Below, piece after piece: positions 11,657 through 30,104 of a stretch of 31,123 nt of DNA. Position numbers and translations under genes: made by a program. The notes beneath the pieces were generated by a model. The model was not told the DNA's origin, searched no databases, and was given only the letters and a program-made list of their open reading frames with translations. This stretch comes from a virus: the IMG/VR virus record IMGVR_UViG_3300048032_000136, positions 1 to 31,123 of that record; one strand, 5' to 3'. Numbering within the stretch: position 1 is the first letter of the stretch; each line of letters opens with the position of its first letter.

Positions 11657-12724
11657 ATGCCCCCAAGAAATCATAAGCAGTGGCGAACCAAGCCAAGCGT
11701 AGAGTATGTAAGCTCTTACATCTACTCTGACCAAGACCTGTATGAACAAGAGATGGAAAAGATATTCTCTAAGGTATGGGTTCCTATGTGTCACATCAGC
11801 GAGATGCGTAACGAAGGAGACTTCAGAACCACAGAAATTGCTGGGGTTCATGTAATTGCATGGAATACTAGTGGTGGTGTAGTAGCAAAAAGAGATACTG
11901 GAGTACATAAGCTATCTGGTAATATGGAAGTACTCACAACTGGTTTTCCACTACACTGTGAAGTAAAACATGGTGGTATGGTCTGGGTTACCTTAGACCC
12001 AAATCCTACCCAGAGTGTGGAGGAATGGACTTGTGGTGCTTTTGTTTGTATTGCTGATGCTATTGATACCGAAGAACTGGAGGTCTTCCATTACCATAAG
12101 GCCATCATAGACACTAACTACAAGCTTTGGCACGACACAAACTCAGAGTTCTATCATGACTTCATGCACTACTTTAATCGTGTGTCTGGTTTTAACGATG
12201 AGTACTTTGCTCGTAAGAACATCCCGTTTGATAATGGGCATGTAAACGTTAGTAGCTTCACGGTTAACTACGAAGAGTATGATGGCTTTGAAGATAGAGG
12301 TGAACTCTCCTTCCCTAACCTACCCCCAAACCAATGGTACATGGTAGACCTATTCCCTGGATATAACTTCAATCTACGAGGCTCAGCTTACCGTAGCGAT
12401 AGTGTCACTCCTCTAGCACCTAACAAGGTTCTCATAGAGTTCAGAGGCTACGGCCTCAAGAGTGACAGTAAAGAAGACAGAGCTACTCGTATTAAACACC
12501 ATAACTCCATCTGGGGTGGCTTCGGACGTAACCTACACGAAGACCTAATAGGTGTAGCAGGACAAGGCACAACCATGCGCCCCGGTACTGAAGAGCGTCA
12601 TATCCTCCACGGTAGACACGAGAACGGAACAATTCACGATGAGGTTGGTATGAGACACTATTATGCTGAGTGGTCTAAATGGATAGGCGTTGATGCCAGC
12701 AATCCAAAGGCACTAGCCGCTTGA
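11657..12724 (+). CDS. Rieske-type ring-hydroxylating oxygenase homologue lacking the [2Fe-2S] ligands
   Basis: 355 residues from ATG 11657 with TGGAGATTAG upstream. The N-terminus matches oxygenase alpha subunits: EQEMEKIFSKVWVPMCH, then EGDFRTTEIAGVHVIAWN. The usual Rieske segment with its Cys-x-His and Cys-x2-His ligands is absent: only about 25 residues separate VIAWN from the post-cluster strand FPLHCEVKHGGMVWVTLDP. The catalytic non-haem iron site seems kept: NYKLWHDTNSEFYHDFMHYF gives Glu164, His167 and His171, and NLHEDLIGVAGQG gives Asp296. Without the cluster it cannot take electrons in the normal way, so it may use another donor, be a partial subunit, or have a non-enzymatic role. 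It sits between terS and terL. The stop overlaps the terL start (TTGA). Confidence 0.78.
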   Translation: MPPRNHKQWRTKPSVEYVSSYIYSDQDLYEQEMEKIFSKVWVPMCHISEMRNEGDFRTTEIAGVHVIAWNTSGGVVAKRDTGVHKLSGNMEVLTTGFPLHCEVKHGGMVWVTLDPNPTQSVEEWTCGAFVCIADAIDTEELEVFHYHKAIIDTNYKLWHDTNSEFYHDFMHYFNRVSGFNDEYFARKNIPFDNGHVNVSSFTVNYEEYDGFEDRGELSFPNLPPNQWYMVDLFPGYNFNLRGSAYRSDSVTPLAPNKVLIEFRGYGLKSDSKEDRATRIKHHNSIWGGFGRNLHEDLIGVAGQGTTMRPGTEERHILHGRHENGTIHDEVGMRHYYAEWSKWIGVDASNPKALAA

Positions 12725-14388
12725 ACGTACCAGTTCAACTGCATGACTTCAGAAACTTTCTCTTCTTGGTGTGGAAACACCTTGGCCTCCCAGAACCCAC
12801 CCCCATACAGTACGACATTGCAGAATACCTGCAGAGTAGTCCTAAACGAGCCATCATTGAGGCTTTTCGTGGGGTGGGTAAGAGCTACATTACGGCAGCC
12901 TATGTCGTTCACCAGCTTCTGCTAGACCCAGAACTAAAGTTTCTTGTCGTATCTGCATCGAAGTCTCGTGCTGATGACTTCTCCACCTTTACCCAACGGA
13001 TTATCCTAGAGCTACCTATATGTCAGCACCTAGTAGCCAAGGATACCCAACGATGGTCAAAGATTGCCTTTGACGTAGCCCCTGCTAAAGCAGCAGGTAG
13101 CCCATCAGTCAAGTCTGTGGGTGTGACAGGCCAGCTTACTGGCTCTCGTGCCGACATAATCATTGCTGATGACGTAGAAGTACCTAATAACTCCATGACC
13201 CAGATGATGCGTGAAAAGCTTGGTGAAGCAGTCAAGGAGTTTGACGCTATCCTAAAGCCAGACGGTAAGGTTGTATACCTTGGAACCCCTCAAAACGAGA
13301 TGTCCCTGTACAATACCCTGCTAGAACGTGGCTATTCGATGCGTGTATGGCCTGCAAGGTATCCTACCGTAGAAGGCTCTCAGAAGGCCTACAGTGGACG
13401 TTTAGCTCCAAGCCTATGGGAGACACTAGAGAGGGACTCAGAGGCCATCAATGGGACTCCTACGGACTCTAAACGCTTTTCTGATGAAGACTTGATAGAA
13501 AGAGAGCTTAGTTATGGCAGAAGTGGCTTCGCTTTACAGTTTATGCTTGATACTAGCATGTCTGATGCTGATAGGTATCCTCTCAAAATAGCAGACCTGA
13601 TTGTCTACCCCTGTGATATTGACACAGCACCAGAGAAACTGGTCTGGGGCATCTTCAAGCCTATTGATAGCGTCCCCAACGTGGCTTTGTCTGGTGACCG
13701 TTTCTACGCCCCAGAGGACACCATAGGACGCTCCAGATACACAGGTAGTGTTCTTGCCATTGACCCCTCTGGTAGAGGCTCTGACGAGACAGCATACGCC
13801 GTTGTGAAGATGCTCAACGGTTTCCTGCACGTTGCAGCTGCAGGAGGCATTGCTGGGGGCTACAGTGACGACACCTTGAAGACCATAGCTAACCTTGCGA
13901 AAGACCATAAGGTTAACGCTGTGCTGATTGAGAGTAACTTTGGTGACGGTATGTTCACTGAGCTACTCAAGCCTCACATGACTAAGGTGTACCCTGTGTC
14001 TATGGAGGAGGTCAGGCATAGTAAGCAGAAGGAAGCTAGGATTATTGATACTCTAGAGCCTGTAATGAACCAGCATAGGCTCGTTATAGACCCTAAAGTA
14101 CTCCAGAGAGACTACGATAGTGTGCAACATCTACCACCTGAGAAGGCCATGAGGTACATGCTGACCTACCAGATGACTAGAATTACACGTCAACGTGGTG
14201 CTTTGGCTCACGATGATAGGTTGGATGTCTTGGCTATGGCTGTGCAGTACTGGGTAGACCAGATGGCAGCAGATGCTGACAGTGAGATTAGGGTCAGGAA
14301 GAGTGAATTACTGGATAATGAGCTAGATAAGTTCATGTCTCATGTAAATACCAGTAATCATAGAGCAAAAGCTAGTTCTTGGTTCTAA
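12721..14388 (+). CDS. terL: Terminase large subunit (T7 gp19-like ATPase-nuclease)
   Basis: 555 residues, with a TTG start at 12721 in a TTGA overlap with the oxygenase-like gene. It packages DNA into the capsid. The ATPase has a Walker A-like FRGVGKSYIT near residue 50, LVVSASKSRAD, SPSVKSVGVTGQLTGSRAD and a Walker B IIIADDVE. The nuclease domain has VLAIDPSGRGSDETAYAV, AVLIESNFGDGMF and ALAHDDRLDVLAMAVQYW, which supply the acidic residues. It aligns with T7 gp19 nearly end to end (T7: 586). The last codon overlaps the phage-type promoter motif at 14383-14401. Confidence 0.97.
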   Translation: MNVPVQLHDFRNFLFLVWKHLGLPEPTPIQYDIAEYLQSSPKRAIIEAFRGVGKSYITAAYVVHQLLLDPELKFLVVSASKSRADDFSTFTQRIILELPICQHLVAKDTQRWSKIAFDVAPAKAAGSPSVKSVGVTGQLTGSRADIIIADDVEVPNNSMTQMMREKLGEAVKEFDAILKPDGKVVYLGTPQNEMSLYNTLLERGYSMRVWPARYPTVEGSQKAYSGRLAPSLWETLERDSEAINGTPTDSKRFSDEDLIERELSYGRSGFALQFMLDTSMSDADRYPLKIADLIVYPCDIDTAPEKLVWGIFKPIDSVPNVALSGDRFYAPEDTIGRSRYTGSVLAIDPSGRGSDETAYAVVKMLNGFLHVAAAGGIAGGYSDDTLKTIANLAKDHKVNAVLIESNFGDGMFTELLKPHMTKVYPVSMEEVRHSKQKEARIIDTLEPVMNQHRLVIDPKVLQRDYDSVQHLPPEKAMRYMLTYQMTRITRQRGALAHDDRLDVLAMAVQYWVDQMAADADSEIRVRKSELLDNELDKFMSHVNTSNHRAKASSWF

Positions 14389-14401
14389 CCTTCCCCTATA
14401 G
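14383..14401 (+). promoter_or_regulatory. Phage RNA polymerase promoter, copy 1
   Basis: TTCTAACCTTCCCCTATAG, identical over 19 bases to copy 2 at 21898. The CTATAG end matches the core of single-subunit polymerase promoters (T7 ends ACTATAG), so G14401 is the likely first transcribed base. It overlaps the terL stop codon and reads into the non-coding region, a position like T7's end-of-genome promoters. Confidence 0.75.
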
Positions 14402-16909: not shown

Positions 16910-17098
16910 ATGAATGTACTAAGTTTGTTTGACGGTATGTCGTGTGGACGTATCGCGTTAGATAAAGCAGGTATCAAGGTAGATAAGTACTATGCCAGTG
17001 AGATATGTAATGAACAGACATTTACCAAGTCATTCTTTGACGAAGAGATGTTTGACCACGATTGGAATGACACATCAATCATGCAGGAGGTAGCATAG
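16910..17098 (+). CDS. N-terminal fragment of a C5-cytosine DNA methyltransferase (62 aa)
   Basis: ATG 16910 with AGGAGG upstream. Residues 1-33 (MNVLSLFDGMSCGRIALDKA, then GIKVDKYYASEI) are a near-perfect motif I / SAM-binding start of a phage C5-methyltransferase. Homology then stops. The remaining 29 residues are acidic and unrelated (FFDEEMFDHDWND), and the catalytic Pro-Cys motif IV is absent. No frameshifted remainder follows. It has its own ribosome site and is closely followed by another gene, so it looks like a maintained mini-gene and not fresh debris. It cannot methylate DNA. SAM binding, decoy or regulatory action is possible. Confidence 0.7.
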   Translation: MNVLSLFDGMSCGRIALDKAGIKVDKYYASEICNEQTFTKSFFDEEMFDHDWNDTSIMQEVA

Positions 17099-19167: not shown

Positions 19168-19198
19168 GTGTCCTTGGGTGTGTCCTAAGTGTCCTAAG
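19168..19198 (+). repeat. Three GTGTCCT(A/T)(A/G)G repeats upstream of the tRNA
   Basis: GTGTCCTTGG at 19168-19177, then GTGTCCTAAG at 19180-19189 and again at 19189-19198. A direct copy returns at 19441-19450 and an inverted one at 19426-19434, on the other side of the tRNA. Repeats on both sides of a tRNA beside int are what integrase arm-type sites look like. Confidence 0.65.
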
Positions 19199-19202
19199 TG
19201 GA

Positions 19203-19291
19203 GCGAGCATGGTGGAATTGGTAGACACACAAGACTTAAAATCTTGAGCCTTTTCAAAGGCGTGGGGGTTCGAGTCCCCCTGCTCGTACCA
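19203..19291 (+). tRNA. tRNA-Leu (UAA), complete; probable attachment site
   Basis: 89 bases including encoded CCA. The acceptor stem GCGAGCA (19203-19209) pairs with TGCTCGT (19281-19287) with one G-T pair. The anticodon stem CAAGA/TCTTG holds loop CTTAAAA with TAA at 19237-19239. A long variable arm (GCCTTTTCAAAGGC region) identifies a class II tRNA. The T arm is GGGGG-TTCGAGT-CCCCC. All parts are intact, so it could serve as a working tRNA. Position just after int makes it the likely attP identity segment. An 11-base piece of its anticodon arm recurs at 19301. Confidence 0.95.
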
Positions 19292-19425: not shown

Positions 19426-19449
19426 TTAGGACACAATACGGTGTCCTAA
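19426..19449. promoter_or_regulatory. Inverted repeat TTAGGACAC-N6-GTGTCCTAA before RNAP
   Basis: Perfect 9-base arms 18 bases ahead of the RNA polymerase ATG. The arms are the GTGTCCTAAG repeat in both orientations. It may be an integrase site, an operator, or a hairpin in the mRNA leader near the ribosome site AAGGAG. Confidence 0.6.
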
Positions 19450-19467
19450 GTGGCGTAAGGAGATAAC

Positions 19468-20238
19468 ATGCCGACATTAGAAGAGCAGTTAGAACTAGAA
19501 GAGCAGATGCTTAGTGATGGTGTCAGTCGATACCAAAGCAACACCAACAAACTAATAGAGAAGGGTATCGAATCTAATACACAGCATGGCCGGGCTATGA
19601 TTGCTGCCATCGTCAATGCTGTAGCTGATGGGGTATCTGATATTCAAAGAGACGTTACAAGTAATCGGGATATTACTAGAAAAAATTTACAGGGAATGGA
19701 TGCCCACCAAGTTGCATACCTTGCCCTCATCACAGTAGTTGATGAAGTATCTAAGAGGTTTACCTTGATGAAGGTAGCCAAGAGTCTAGGTGCAAACATA
19801 GAACTTCAGAAGAGGCTTAGCATTTGGGTTGAGGCTGAGGGTAACTCAGCACTTAATGTAATCAAGAAGGCTAACGAGAAGTCAAGCAAGCTACATAAGC
19901 GACAAGGCCTAGTCCATAAAATGAACAAGGATGGTTACAACCATACTGAATGGACTAACGAAGAACGTATCCATGTAGGCATGAGGTTGGTAGATAAGAT
20001 TATTATTAAGACAGGGTTGGTCAGGCTAACCAAGTCAGTGAAGAAGAATAAAACTATTACCTATCTGGAAGCTACCCCCGAAACTCTGGCTTGGGTTCAG
20101 AAGTTTAACACGCATCAAGAAGTTATGAAGCCACGTTATGCTCCATCACTTATACCCCCCAGAGATTGGGACGATGTAATTGGTGGGGGATACCACAGTC
20201 AAGTCATTAATCAACTACCGATAGTGAGGGTACATTGA
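19468..20238 (+). CDS. T7-type RNA polymerase, N-terminal part (split gene A)
   Basis: 256 residues from ATG 19468 (AAGGAGATAAC upstream). It aligns with T7 RNA polymerase from its start to about residue 300: an N-terminal helical domain (LEEQLELEEQMLSDGVSRYQ), AYLALITVVDEVSKRFTLMK, WTNEERIHVGMRLVDKIIIK, a hairpin-like KKNKTITYLEATPE, then LIPPRDWDDVIGGGY and the end LPIVRVH. In T7 this part binds upstream promoter DNA, melts it and changes shape during escape. TGA at 20236-20238 stops it where T7 continues without a break. The next ORF carries on immediately in another frame. Confidence 0.9.
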   Translation: MPTLEEQLELEEQMLSDGVSRYQSNTNKLIEKGIESNTQHGRAMIAAIVNAVADGVSDIQRDVTSNRDITRKNLQGMDAHQVAYLALITVVDEVSKRFTLMKVAKSLGANIELQKRLSIWVEAEGNSALNVIKKANEKSSKLHKRQGLVHKMNKDGYNHTEWTNEERIHVGMRLVDKIIIKTGLVRLTKSVKKNKTITYLEATPETLAWVQKFNTHQEVMKPRYAPSLIPPRDWDDVIGGGYHSQVINQLPIVRVH

Positions 20239-21896
20239 AGAAAAAATCTAAAGAATACTTAGATAGGCTACGACAGCAAGACATGAGTGTGGAGTATCGC
20301 TGCATCAATGGACTCCAGCGCACCCCTTGGTCAATCAATAAGCCTGTGCTTGAGGTAATGAGAACAGCATGGGACAGCGGTGAAGAGTGGGCTGGCCTCC
20401 CTCCTCGTGAAGACTTACCCTTACCTGTGTACCCATTCGATAAAGACCCACAGGAAATGAGCGAGGCAGAGAAGCTACTGTTCAGAGATTGGTCAAGCAA
20501 ACGCAACCGTGTTTACCAAGCAAATGGTAAGTCAATGTCACGGCGTATCCAGGTGGAGCGTACACTACAGCTTGCTAATCACTATGCTAAGTATGACGAG
20601 TTCTACTTTGTATGGCAGTTAGACTTTCGTTCACGCAAGTATCCTGTTGAGTCCTTCATGTCACCACAGGTAGCTGATTGGGGCAAGGCTCTCATTGGAT
20701 TTACCTACGGCTTCCCTATTAACGAAGCAGGTGATGCTGATTGGCTGGCTATTCATGGTGCTAACTTGTTCGGTAATGACAAGGTATCCTTTTCTGAGCG
20801 TATCCAGTGGGCATGGGATAGTGAGGCTGACATAGTAAAGGTAGCTGAGAACCCACTTGATTACATGTGGTGGACTCAGGCTGACAAGCCTTGGCAGTTC
20901 CTTGGTTGGTGTATGGAATGGTATGGTCTACTACGTCAGGGTTGGGGATACTACACACACCTACCCTGCGCCGCTGATGGTAGCTGTAATGGACTGCAAC
21001 ATCTAAGTGCAATCCTACTCGATAAGCAGGGTGGTAGGGCTACTAACTTAATACCATCAGATGCACCGTCAGATATATACACTGATGTAGCAATTAGGGC
21101 TGAGACTTTAATTAAACAAGATGCCCAAGCTGGTAATGAGATGGCTAAGAAATGCTTAGAGTTTGGCGTCACTCGCAGTCTAACGAAGAGGCCTGTAATG
21201 ATTACGCCTTACTCTGGTACACAACACGCTTGTCGTGAGTATATCCAAGATGCAATCGCTGATAGAATAGAGAAGAAGGGAGACTGTAACCCCTTCGGTG
21301 ATGATTACTTTGAAGCTTCGCTCTACCTAAGTCGCCACATCTGGCAGGGTATTAACGAGACTATCTCATCAGCCCGGCAGGTAATGGACTACGTTAAGAC
21401 CATCGGCTCACACTACGCTGATGCTAACAAACATATGGAATGGGTAACGCCTACTAATTTTCTAGTTGTACAGCCCTACCTCAACACTAAAAAGCGCAGG
21501 ATTGAGACACACATTGATGGTAGTATTGTACGACTAAGTTACCAACAAGAATTAGAAGATGTGAATAGGTCACGGATTACAACAGGTAGTAGCCCTAACT
21601 TCATTCACTCATTGGATGCAGCTGCTTTAACTAAAACTGTTGTCAGGTGTATGGATGATGGAATGACTGACTTCGCTATGGTGCATGACAGCTATGGTAC
21701 ACACAGCCCTAACATGCCTATCTTGTCACAAGTATTACGAGAAGCTTTTGTTGAAATGTATCAGGAGAATGATGTGTTACAACAACTGCGTGACCACGCT
21801 TGTTACACTATAGGAGATAATACACTACCCCAACCACCAACTAAGGGAGACTTAGATTTAAGCAGGATACTGGAATCACAGTACTTCTTTGCATAG
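20235..21896 (+). CDS. T7-type RNA polymerase, catalytic part (split gene B)
   Basis: 553 residues with TTG at 20235, overlapping gene A by four bases (TTGA), and GAGG at 20226-20229 five bases upstream. It covers all polymerase motifs: Asp248 (ADGSCNGLQHLSA), Arg314, Lys318 and Tyr326 (TRSLTKRPVMITPY), a specificity-loop region (EWVTPTNFLVVQPYLNTKKR) and Asp485 (MVHDSYGT). It ends ESQYFFA, like T7's ESDFAFA. No residues seem lost at the junction. Either the enzyme works as two subunits made by coupled translation, or one base is missing in the sequence. Its promoters are probably the 14383, 21898 and 30086 motifs. Confidence 0.93.
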   Translation: MKKKSKEYLDRLRQQDMSVEYRCINGLQRTPWSINKPVLEVMRTAWDSGEEWAGLPPREDLPLPVYPFDKDPQEMSEAEKLLFRDWSSKRNRVYQANGKSMSRRIQVERTLQLANHYAKYDEFYFVWQLDFRSRKYPVESFMSPQVADWGKALIGFTYGFPINEAGDADWLAIHGANLFGNDKVSFSERIQWAWDSEADIVKVAENPLDYMWWTQADKPWQFLGWCMEWYGLLRQGWGYYTHLPCAADGSCNGLQHLSAILLDKQGGRATNLIPSDAPSDIYTDVAIRAETLIKQDAQAGNEMAKKCLEFGVTRSLTKRPVMITPYSGTQHACREYIQDAIADRIEKKGDCNPFGDDYFEASLYLSRHIWQGINETISSARQVMDYVKTIGSHYADANKHMEWVTPTNFLVVQPYLNTKKRRIETHIDGSIVRLSYQQELEDVNRSRITTGSSPNFIHSLDAAALTKTVVRCMDDGMTDFAMVHDSYGTHSPNMPILSQVLREAFVEMYQENDVLQQLRDHACYTIGDNTLPQPPTKGDLDLSRILESQYFFA

Positions 21897-21897
21897 T

Positions 21898-21916
21898 TTC
21901 TAACCTTCCCCTATAG
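21898..21916 (+). promoter_or_regulatory. Phage RNA polymerase promoter, copy 2
   Basis: TTCTAACCTTCCCCTATAG, identical over 19 bases to copy 1, two bases after the polymerase stop codon. G21916 is the likely start of transcription. It would drive the replication and nucleotide-metabolism genes, beginning with the single-stranded DNA binding protein. Confidence 0.8.
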
Positions 21917-30085: not shown

Positions 30086-30104
30086 CTCAAACCTTCCCCT
30101 ATAG
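30086..30104 (+). promoter_or_regulatory. Phage RNA polymerase promoter, copy 3
   Basis: CTCAAACCTTCCCCTATAG; the last 15 bases (AACCTTCCCCTATAG) equal copies 1 and 2. G30104 is the likely start of transcription. It lies between the reductase stop and the first structural-operon ORF, so it is the late promoter. Confidence 0.8.

Follow-up and report, generated by a model that had tools for sequence, protein, structure and literature searches.

A putative two-chain T7-type RNA polymerase encoded by overlapping genes in a clade of uncultured phages

Background

Does a phage locus in which the two parts of a T7-type RNA polymerase (RNAP) lie in separate, overlapping open reading frames (ORFs) encode a two-chain enzyme, or is it an ordinary gene that was broken by a sequencing mistake? 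The question is raised by a 31,123-base virus record from a phage described as marine, the whole of which was analyzed here and is referred to as the window. A first-pass annotation had proposed a natural two-subunit enzyme with a coupled TTGA junction, and had named a one-base sequencing or assembly error as the alternative.

The position of the break is relevant to how such an enzyme works. In the accessible text of two papers on T7 RNAP (PMC3961267, PMC11617373), the N-terminal domain is described as binding the promoter and rotating about a C-linker (residues 251-296) at the change from initiation to elongation, and the stiffness of this linker as affecting abortive products and promoter release. 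The catalytic domain proper is placed from residue 313 on in the accessible portion of PMC11617373.

Methods

Relatives of the window pair were collected using two viral-contig scans with both halves and one with an alignment. The second split clade described below was obtained from a viral-contig scan with a Chosvirus C half. Loci were classified as split, fused or C only by an HMM-based call. Those with an identical 300-base junction were treated as duplicates, which reduced 200 classified loci to 158. Among the C-only loci, the contig or fetched stretch ends inside C or immediately upstream of it in 11 (L006, L019, L023, L024, L137, L147, L182, L183, L211, L126 and L169), L004 includes no more of N than its final 30 residues, L025-L028 are distant loci in which the ORF continues upstream, and L121 is N4 itself. 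A Shine-Dalgarno match was defined as a 4-base match located 3-12 bases before the C start. For the phylogenetic trees, rows of fewer than 500 residues and near-copies were dropped, leaving 94 of 182 loci. A careful C-half tree (68 rows) was built after dropping N4, PSCSP1g, L139 and 24 further names. Four rows with a short N half, including the fused sister L185, were dropped for a concatenated N+C tree (64 rows), and 22 more were dropped for a 42-row version.

Results

The gene pair and its surroundings

The polymerase of the window is carried by two ORFs, here called N and C (Table 1). Pfam assigns RPOL_N (PF14700, E = 1e-12) to N and RNA_pol (PF00940, E = 6e-109) to C, and the pair holds in this way both the N-terminal and the polymerase domain of a T7-type RNAP. 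By phmmer, N aligns with T7 RNAP residues 34-300 and C with residues from 299/301 to 883, which places the break between H300 and S301. The 816 positions of PHROG 414 are likewise spanned end to end (N, 4-265; C, 265-816). Because the PHROG 414 and T7 alignments are continuous across the two halves, nothing is visibly lost at T7 300/301. The first-pass annotation had described homology running across the junction near T7 residue 300, two ORFs in different frames with a four-base overlap, and a GAGG five bases before the TTG start, and on all of these points the present analysis agrees with it.

Table 1. Positions of the RNAP genes, junction elements and candidate promoters in the window
Feature	Position	Strand	Remark
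N subunit ORF	19468..20238	+	256 aa; stop TGA 20236-20238; promoter-binding N-terminal domain, T7-type RNA polymerase
C subunit ORF	20235..21896	+	553 aa; TTG start; thumb, palm, fingers and catalytic motifs, T7-type RNA polymerase
TTGA overlap	20235..20238	+	TTG start of C / TGA stop of N
GAGG, Shine-Dalgarno-like, for C cistron	20226..20229	+	5 bases 5' of TTG; within the terminal part of the N ORF
Candidate phage promoter AACCTTCCCCTATAG	21902..21916	+	six bases after C stop; relatives have a counterpart there
Candidate phage promoter AACCTTCCCCTATAG	14387..14401	+	terminase ORF end, with its last two bases shared
Candidate phage promoter AACCTTCCCCTATAG	30090..30104	+	between the ribonucleotide reductase ORF and the following gene block

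Catalytic motifs A, B and C are present in the C half, where D248, K318, Y326 and D485, which align with T7 D537, K631, Y639 and D812 (T7 numbering), are invariant in the alignments. The DxxGR motif departs from its usual form: the window has DFRSR, in which the glycine is replaced by serine and D130, R132 and R134 are kept. DFRSR is also found in L087, and most relatives have glycine at that place. AlphaFold2 models of the single chains reached a pLDDT of 86.6 for N and 92.0 for C and matched T7 RNAP in the PDB with TMq up to 0.84 and 0.87, respectively; the end of the N chain near the break is uncertain, because residues 250-256 were modelled at pLDDT below 50. The predicted isolated N chain appears to be more similar to the T7 N domain in its elongation form (TMq up to 0.84) than in its promoter-bound form (1cez, 0.46).

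The surroundings of the pair are T7-like, with helicase-primase, terminase and tail fibre genes, all T7-type. The window also contains genes for DNA polymerase A, a 5'-3' exonuclease and ribonucleotide reductase. An integrase gene and a tRNA-Leu gene are located 5' of the RNAP genes. The tRNA-Leu (anticodon taa, 19203-19291) lies between the integrase gene and the N gene and is a possible attachment site; in Limnohabitans phage YIMV22061 a tRNA-Leu is likewise found upstream of the RNAP, but on the opposite strand. Repeated GTGTCCTAAGTG elements with inverted repeats occur in the same interval (19180-19198 and 19441-19459). Elsewhere, the ORF at 11657-12724 contains the catalytic domain of a ring-hydroxylating oxygenase (PF00848, 3e-6), and no Rieske CxH...CxxH pair was seen in it by eye; a metabolic gene of this kind is unusual in phages. 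A 62-residue ORF at 16910-17098, which had no Pfam match, resembles by eye the start of a C5-methyltransferase.

A clade-wide split

The 217 loci comprised 152 split, 48 fused and 17 C-only loci. After removal of duplicates, 97 distinct split junctions belonged to the window clade and 15 to a second split clade, and 46 were fused. The annotation had suggested alignment with related phages as a check on whether the split is shared. In the window clade it is: every one of the 97 distinct junctions has two ORFs in place of the single polypeptide of a standard T7-type RNAP, which is more than chance would give. C halves in this clade are 51-100% identical to that of the window (132 loci, including duplicates), and each locus with a C half at least 51% identical is either split or cut short. 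Loci at 37-43% C identity from the alignment scan are fused, except L211, which is cut. A genome-contig scan with the C half returned no relative; thus, neither a prophage nor a host was found.

The junctions of the window clade vary in their anatomy. Relative to the end of the N stop, C begins at -4 in 65 of 97 junctions, at -1 in 14 and at other positions in 18. A frame offset of 2 was counted in 83, of 1 in 10 and of 0 in 4. Script-chosen C start codons are ATG in 89 junctions and TTG in 8. Stop and start are arranged as TTGA (the form of the window, shared with L005, L009 and L020), TGATG or TAATG, ATGA, TAAATG, or spaced apart. Both ORFs of L096 are in one frame and are parted by the TAA of a TAAATG. 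A Shine-Dalgarno match precedes C in 92 of 97 junctions, compared with 208 of 1072 internal in-frame ATGs and 67 of 284 control windows; the five junctions that have no match by our rule count against a two-cistron reading. Four junctions contain longer stretches between the halves, of 307 (L015), 690 (L087), 921 (L017) and 975 bases (L011). The insert of L087 is a thyX gene (PF02511, 1e-42) and that of L017 is a C5-methyltransferase gene (PF00145, 3e-14), whereas L011 and L015 carry small ORFs without a Pfam match. Since genes and ORFs have been inserted between them, the halves behave as separate genes. The L017 methyltransferase is the full gene related to the short window ORF at 16910-17098 mentioned above.

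Simple counting against six relatives gave dN/dS values of 0.04-0.12 for N and 0.04-0.09 for C, which are rough ratios because several dS values exceed 1. Judged from these counts, both halves are under purifying selection. Pairwise identities of N and C correlate at 0.84 in the window clade, 0.99 in the second clade and 0.76 in fused enzymes, and the median log-identity ratio N/C is 1.32, 1.27 and 1.49, respectively. Relative to C, the N half is no looser than in fused enzymes.

Candidate promoters

Three exact copies of the 15-mer AACCTTCCCCTATAG occur in the window, all on the + strand and each ending a gene block. The mean chance expectation of 0.84 was computed with up to three mismatches allowed and therefore understates the rarity of three exact copies. 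Relatives have a drifting form of AACCTTCCCCTATAG directly after the C stop. CTATA[GA] was found at most 87 bases downstream of C in 20 of 62 distinct stretches, as against 94 of 3100 random stretches, and many of the remaining 42 downstream stretches have a similar block by eye. A generalized promoter pattern matched in 11 of 12 whole records, and six of them (G002, G004, G005, G006, G008 and G011) carry another copy, similar in its core, at a different location. The copies, in our judgment, resemble T7 promoters. This likeness and their position suggest that they are promoters of the split RNAP.

A second split clade

The second split clade (Fussvirus/Chosvirus) includes HTVC041P, HTVC025P, Eyrgjafa, MedDCM-OCT-S30-C28 and Chosvirus Deep1-GF2-KM23-C739, all cut at the same hinge. 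In these phages N runs past the hinge and C starts with MHYNL. HTVC011P (L113, 535-3177) is fused, yet it keeps the N tail of its split sisters collinearly. It may represent a re-fusion, and an insertion in a fused ancestor is a possible alternative. The C-half trees (95 rows, quick; 68 rows, careful) and the N+C trees (64 and 42 rows) each require three changes of state. The window clade is supported at 100/100 in the 68-row C-half tree, and fused relatives sit between the two split clades.

On this evidence we favor two origins of the hinge split, as judged from the trees. The same enzyme could have had another history, in which all RNAPs cut at this hinge descend from a single split ancestor and re-fusions came later. 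We keep this as a rival because AU tests do not reject it: with HTVC011P counted in, placing the split rows in one clade gave p = 0.097 (C, 68 rows) and p = 0.114 (N+C, 42 rows), and a fused HTVC011P that has the N tail of its sisters makes re-fusion look possible. We nevertheless consider a single origin rather unlikely. In the three careful trees, well-supported branches force the three state changes and none of 200 bootstrap trees unites the split rows. Fused enzymes (L185, L199 and Rhizobium phages) are the closest neighbors of the window clade, and the junctions of the two clades are unlike, the second having the MHYNL start and an N tail beyond the hinge.

Discussion

The locus very probably encodes a real two-chain T7-type RNAP, in which C has its own start, the chains associate and AACCTTCCCCTATAG-type promoters are used. 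At the level of sequence, the comparisons establish two cistrons, a split that runs through the clade, separate start signals and conservation of both halves; that the two chains are co-translated, assemble and are active is what we infer. The proposal of a natural two-subunit enzyme is thereby supported by a split common to the whole clade, with assembly into an active enzyme as its inferential part. We propose that one transcript would carry two overlapping cistrons and that translation of C would begin separately at the TTG, served by a GAGG of its own and probably coupled to translation of the end of N. Ribosomes that finish N would restart at the adjoining TTG, helped by the GAGG. The promoter-binding domain with its C-linker would come from the N chain, and thumb, palm and fingers from the C chain. 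The chains would fold apart and then join, without a peptide bond, via the interface that unites these domains in T7 RNAP, and the assembled pair would transcribe from AACCTTCCCCTATAG-type phage promoters.

The other readings of the locus differ in how they account for the junctions. A one-base sequencing or assembly error in an ordinary fused gene would fit the single-base offset between the frames, and errors of this kind can occur in metagenomic contigs. The relatives rule this out: no fused gene was found in the clade, the frame, overlap and spacing of the junction vary among its 97 distinct examples, four of these have ORFs between the halves, and isolated pelagiphages are cut at the same hinge. 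Dozens of relatives with the same cut therefore mark a real, old two-piece enzyme and not a sequencing mistake, for which we see practically no chance. Programmed frameshifting, ribosome bypassing, an intron or an intein could instead yield one fused chain, since the frames in the window are adjacent and N stops exactly where C begins on the T7 alignment. However, a slippery heptamer was not seen on reading the window junction, and the variation in offset and spacing, together with the inserted genes, argues against frameshifting, intron and intein alike. Relatives show both offsets, an in-frame stop and start (L096) and complete, unrelated genes between the halves, and the inserts that can be named, ThyX and a DNA methyltransferase, are neither inteins nor homing endonucleases. 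As none of these devices explains all of the junctions, we rejected them as the general mechanism and regard a single fused product as very improbable.

Two further readings concern the N half itself. It could be a decaying remnant, with C working alone or with another initiation factor, and it does diverge faster than C (median log-identity ratio 1.32). Fused enzymes show a ratio at least as high (1.49), N is found intact and immediately 5' of C in every case in which the contig extends far enough, and its dN/dS is low (0.04-0.12); decay is thus extremely unlikely, and a pseudogene N was rejected by dN/dS. The N chain could also act as a dissociable, sigma-like subunit for promoter specificity and initiation, which would bind the promoter with the C chain and, lacking a peptide bond to the core, could leave or re-dock at the change from initiation to elongation, be produced at another level than C, or be swapped. 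The hinge split would then have two or more origins, and the reason would be that it weakens the connection by which rotation of the N domain is driven. We consider this unlikely.

The cut lies just past the linker and before the catalytic domain; thus, the promoter-binding and catalytic modules are parted at a natural border. It has been kept through much divergence, with C halves down to 51% identity, and lends itself to asking whether the promoter-binding domain has to be joined covalently to the core in the first place. The pairs also provide natural parts for split-polymerase engineering, together with a candidate promoter for testing. In automatic and curated annotation alike, such pairs may be recorded as broken genes, when the proper reading would be one two-chain enzyme.

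Both window halves align along the length of T7 RNAP, which is one 883-residue chain, with the catalytic motifs kept. The closest demonstrated parallel is N4 RNAPII, which belongs to the same family and, according to the accessible text of PMC4496689, has been purified as a heterodimer of gp15 and gp16. As in N4, two neighboring genes of the window encode a T7-type enzyme in two parts, of which the N-terminal one lies upstream. The cut differs. N4 gp16 aligns from about T7 459, after the thumb and DxxGR, whereas the window break at T7 300/301 precedes both, leaving them on the C chain and not falling between DxxGR and motif A. N4 is moreover a Schitoviridae phage with a virion RNAP, and the window phage has T7-like gene content.

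Engineered split T7 RNAPs show that separate fragments can work together. Five seams are reported as tolerated, of which the accessible text of Segall-Shapiro 2014 (PMC4299498) names 67, 179 and 601. The first-pass annotation had mentioned an engineered break near residue 300, which could not be substantiated: no such seam was found in the available text of PMC4299498, PMC8044194 or PMC4299499. For this clade, or for a functional two-chain enzyme cut here, a literature search that was thin in subscription journals returned just PMC6811365, in whose accessible text Chen et al. 2019 describe RNAP genes of pelagiphages (HTVC019Pvirus group III) as 'fragmented into two parts'. These group III phages and Deep1-GF2-KM23-C739 resemble the window in being cut just after a GGGY-type motif with N upstream of C; HTVC025P has two ORFs between the halves, and the C half of HTVC041P is about 36% identical to that of the window. 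They differ in the N tail and MHYNL start noted above and form a separate clade among fused enzymes. The window pair is therefore not the first natural split T7-type RNAP, since N4 RNAPII and the pelagiphage genes, as far as the accessible sources describe them, precede it. As far as the literature search shows, the new elements are an uncultured clade, large and separate, that shares this cut; junctions within it which prove the cut to be stable and the halves to be separate genes; a likely second origin of the cut; and candidate cognate promoters.
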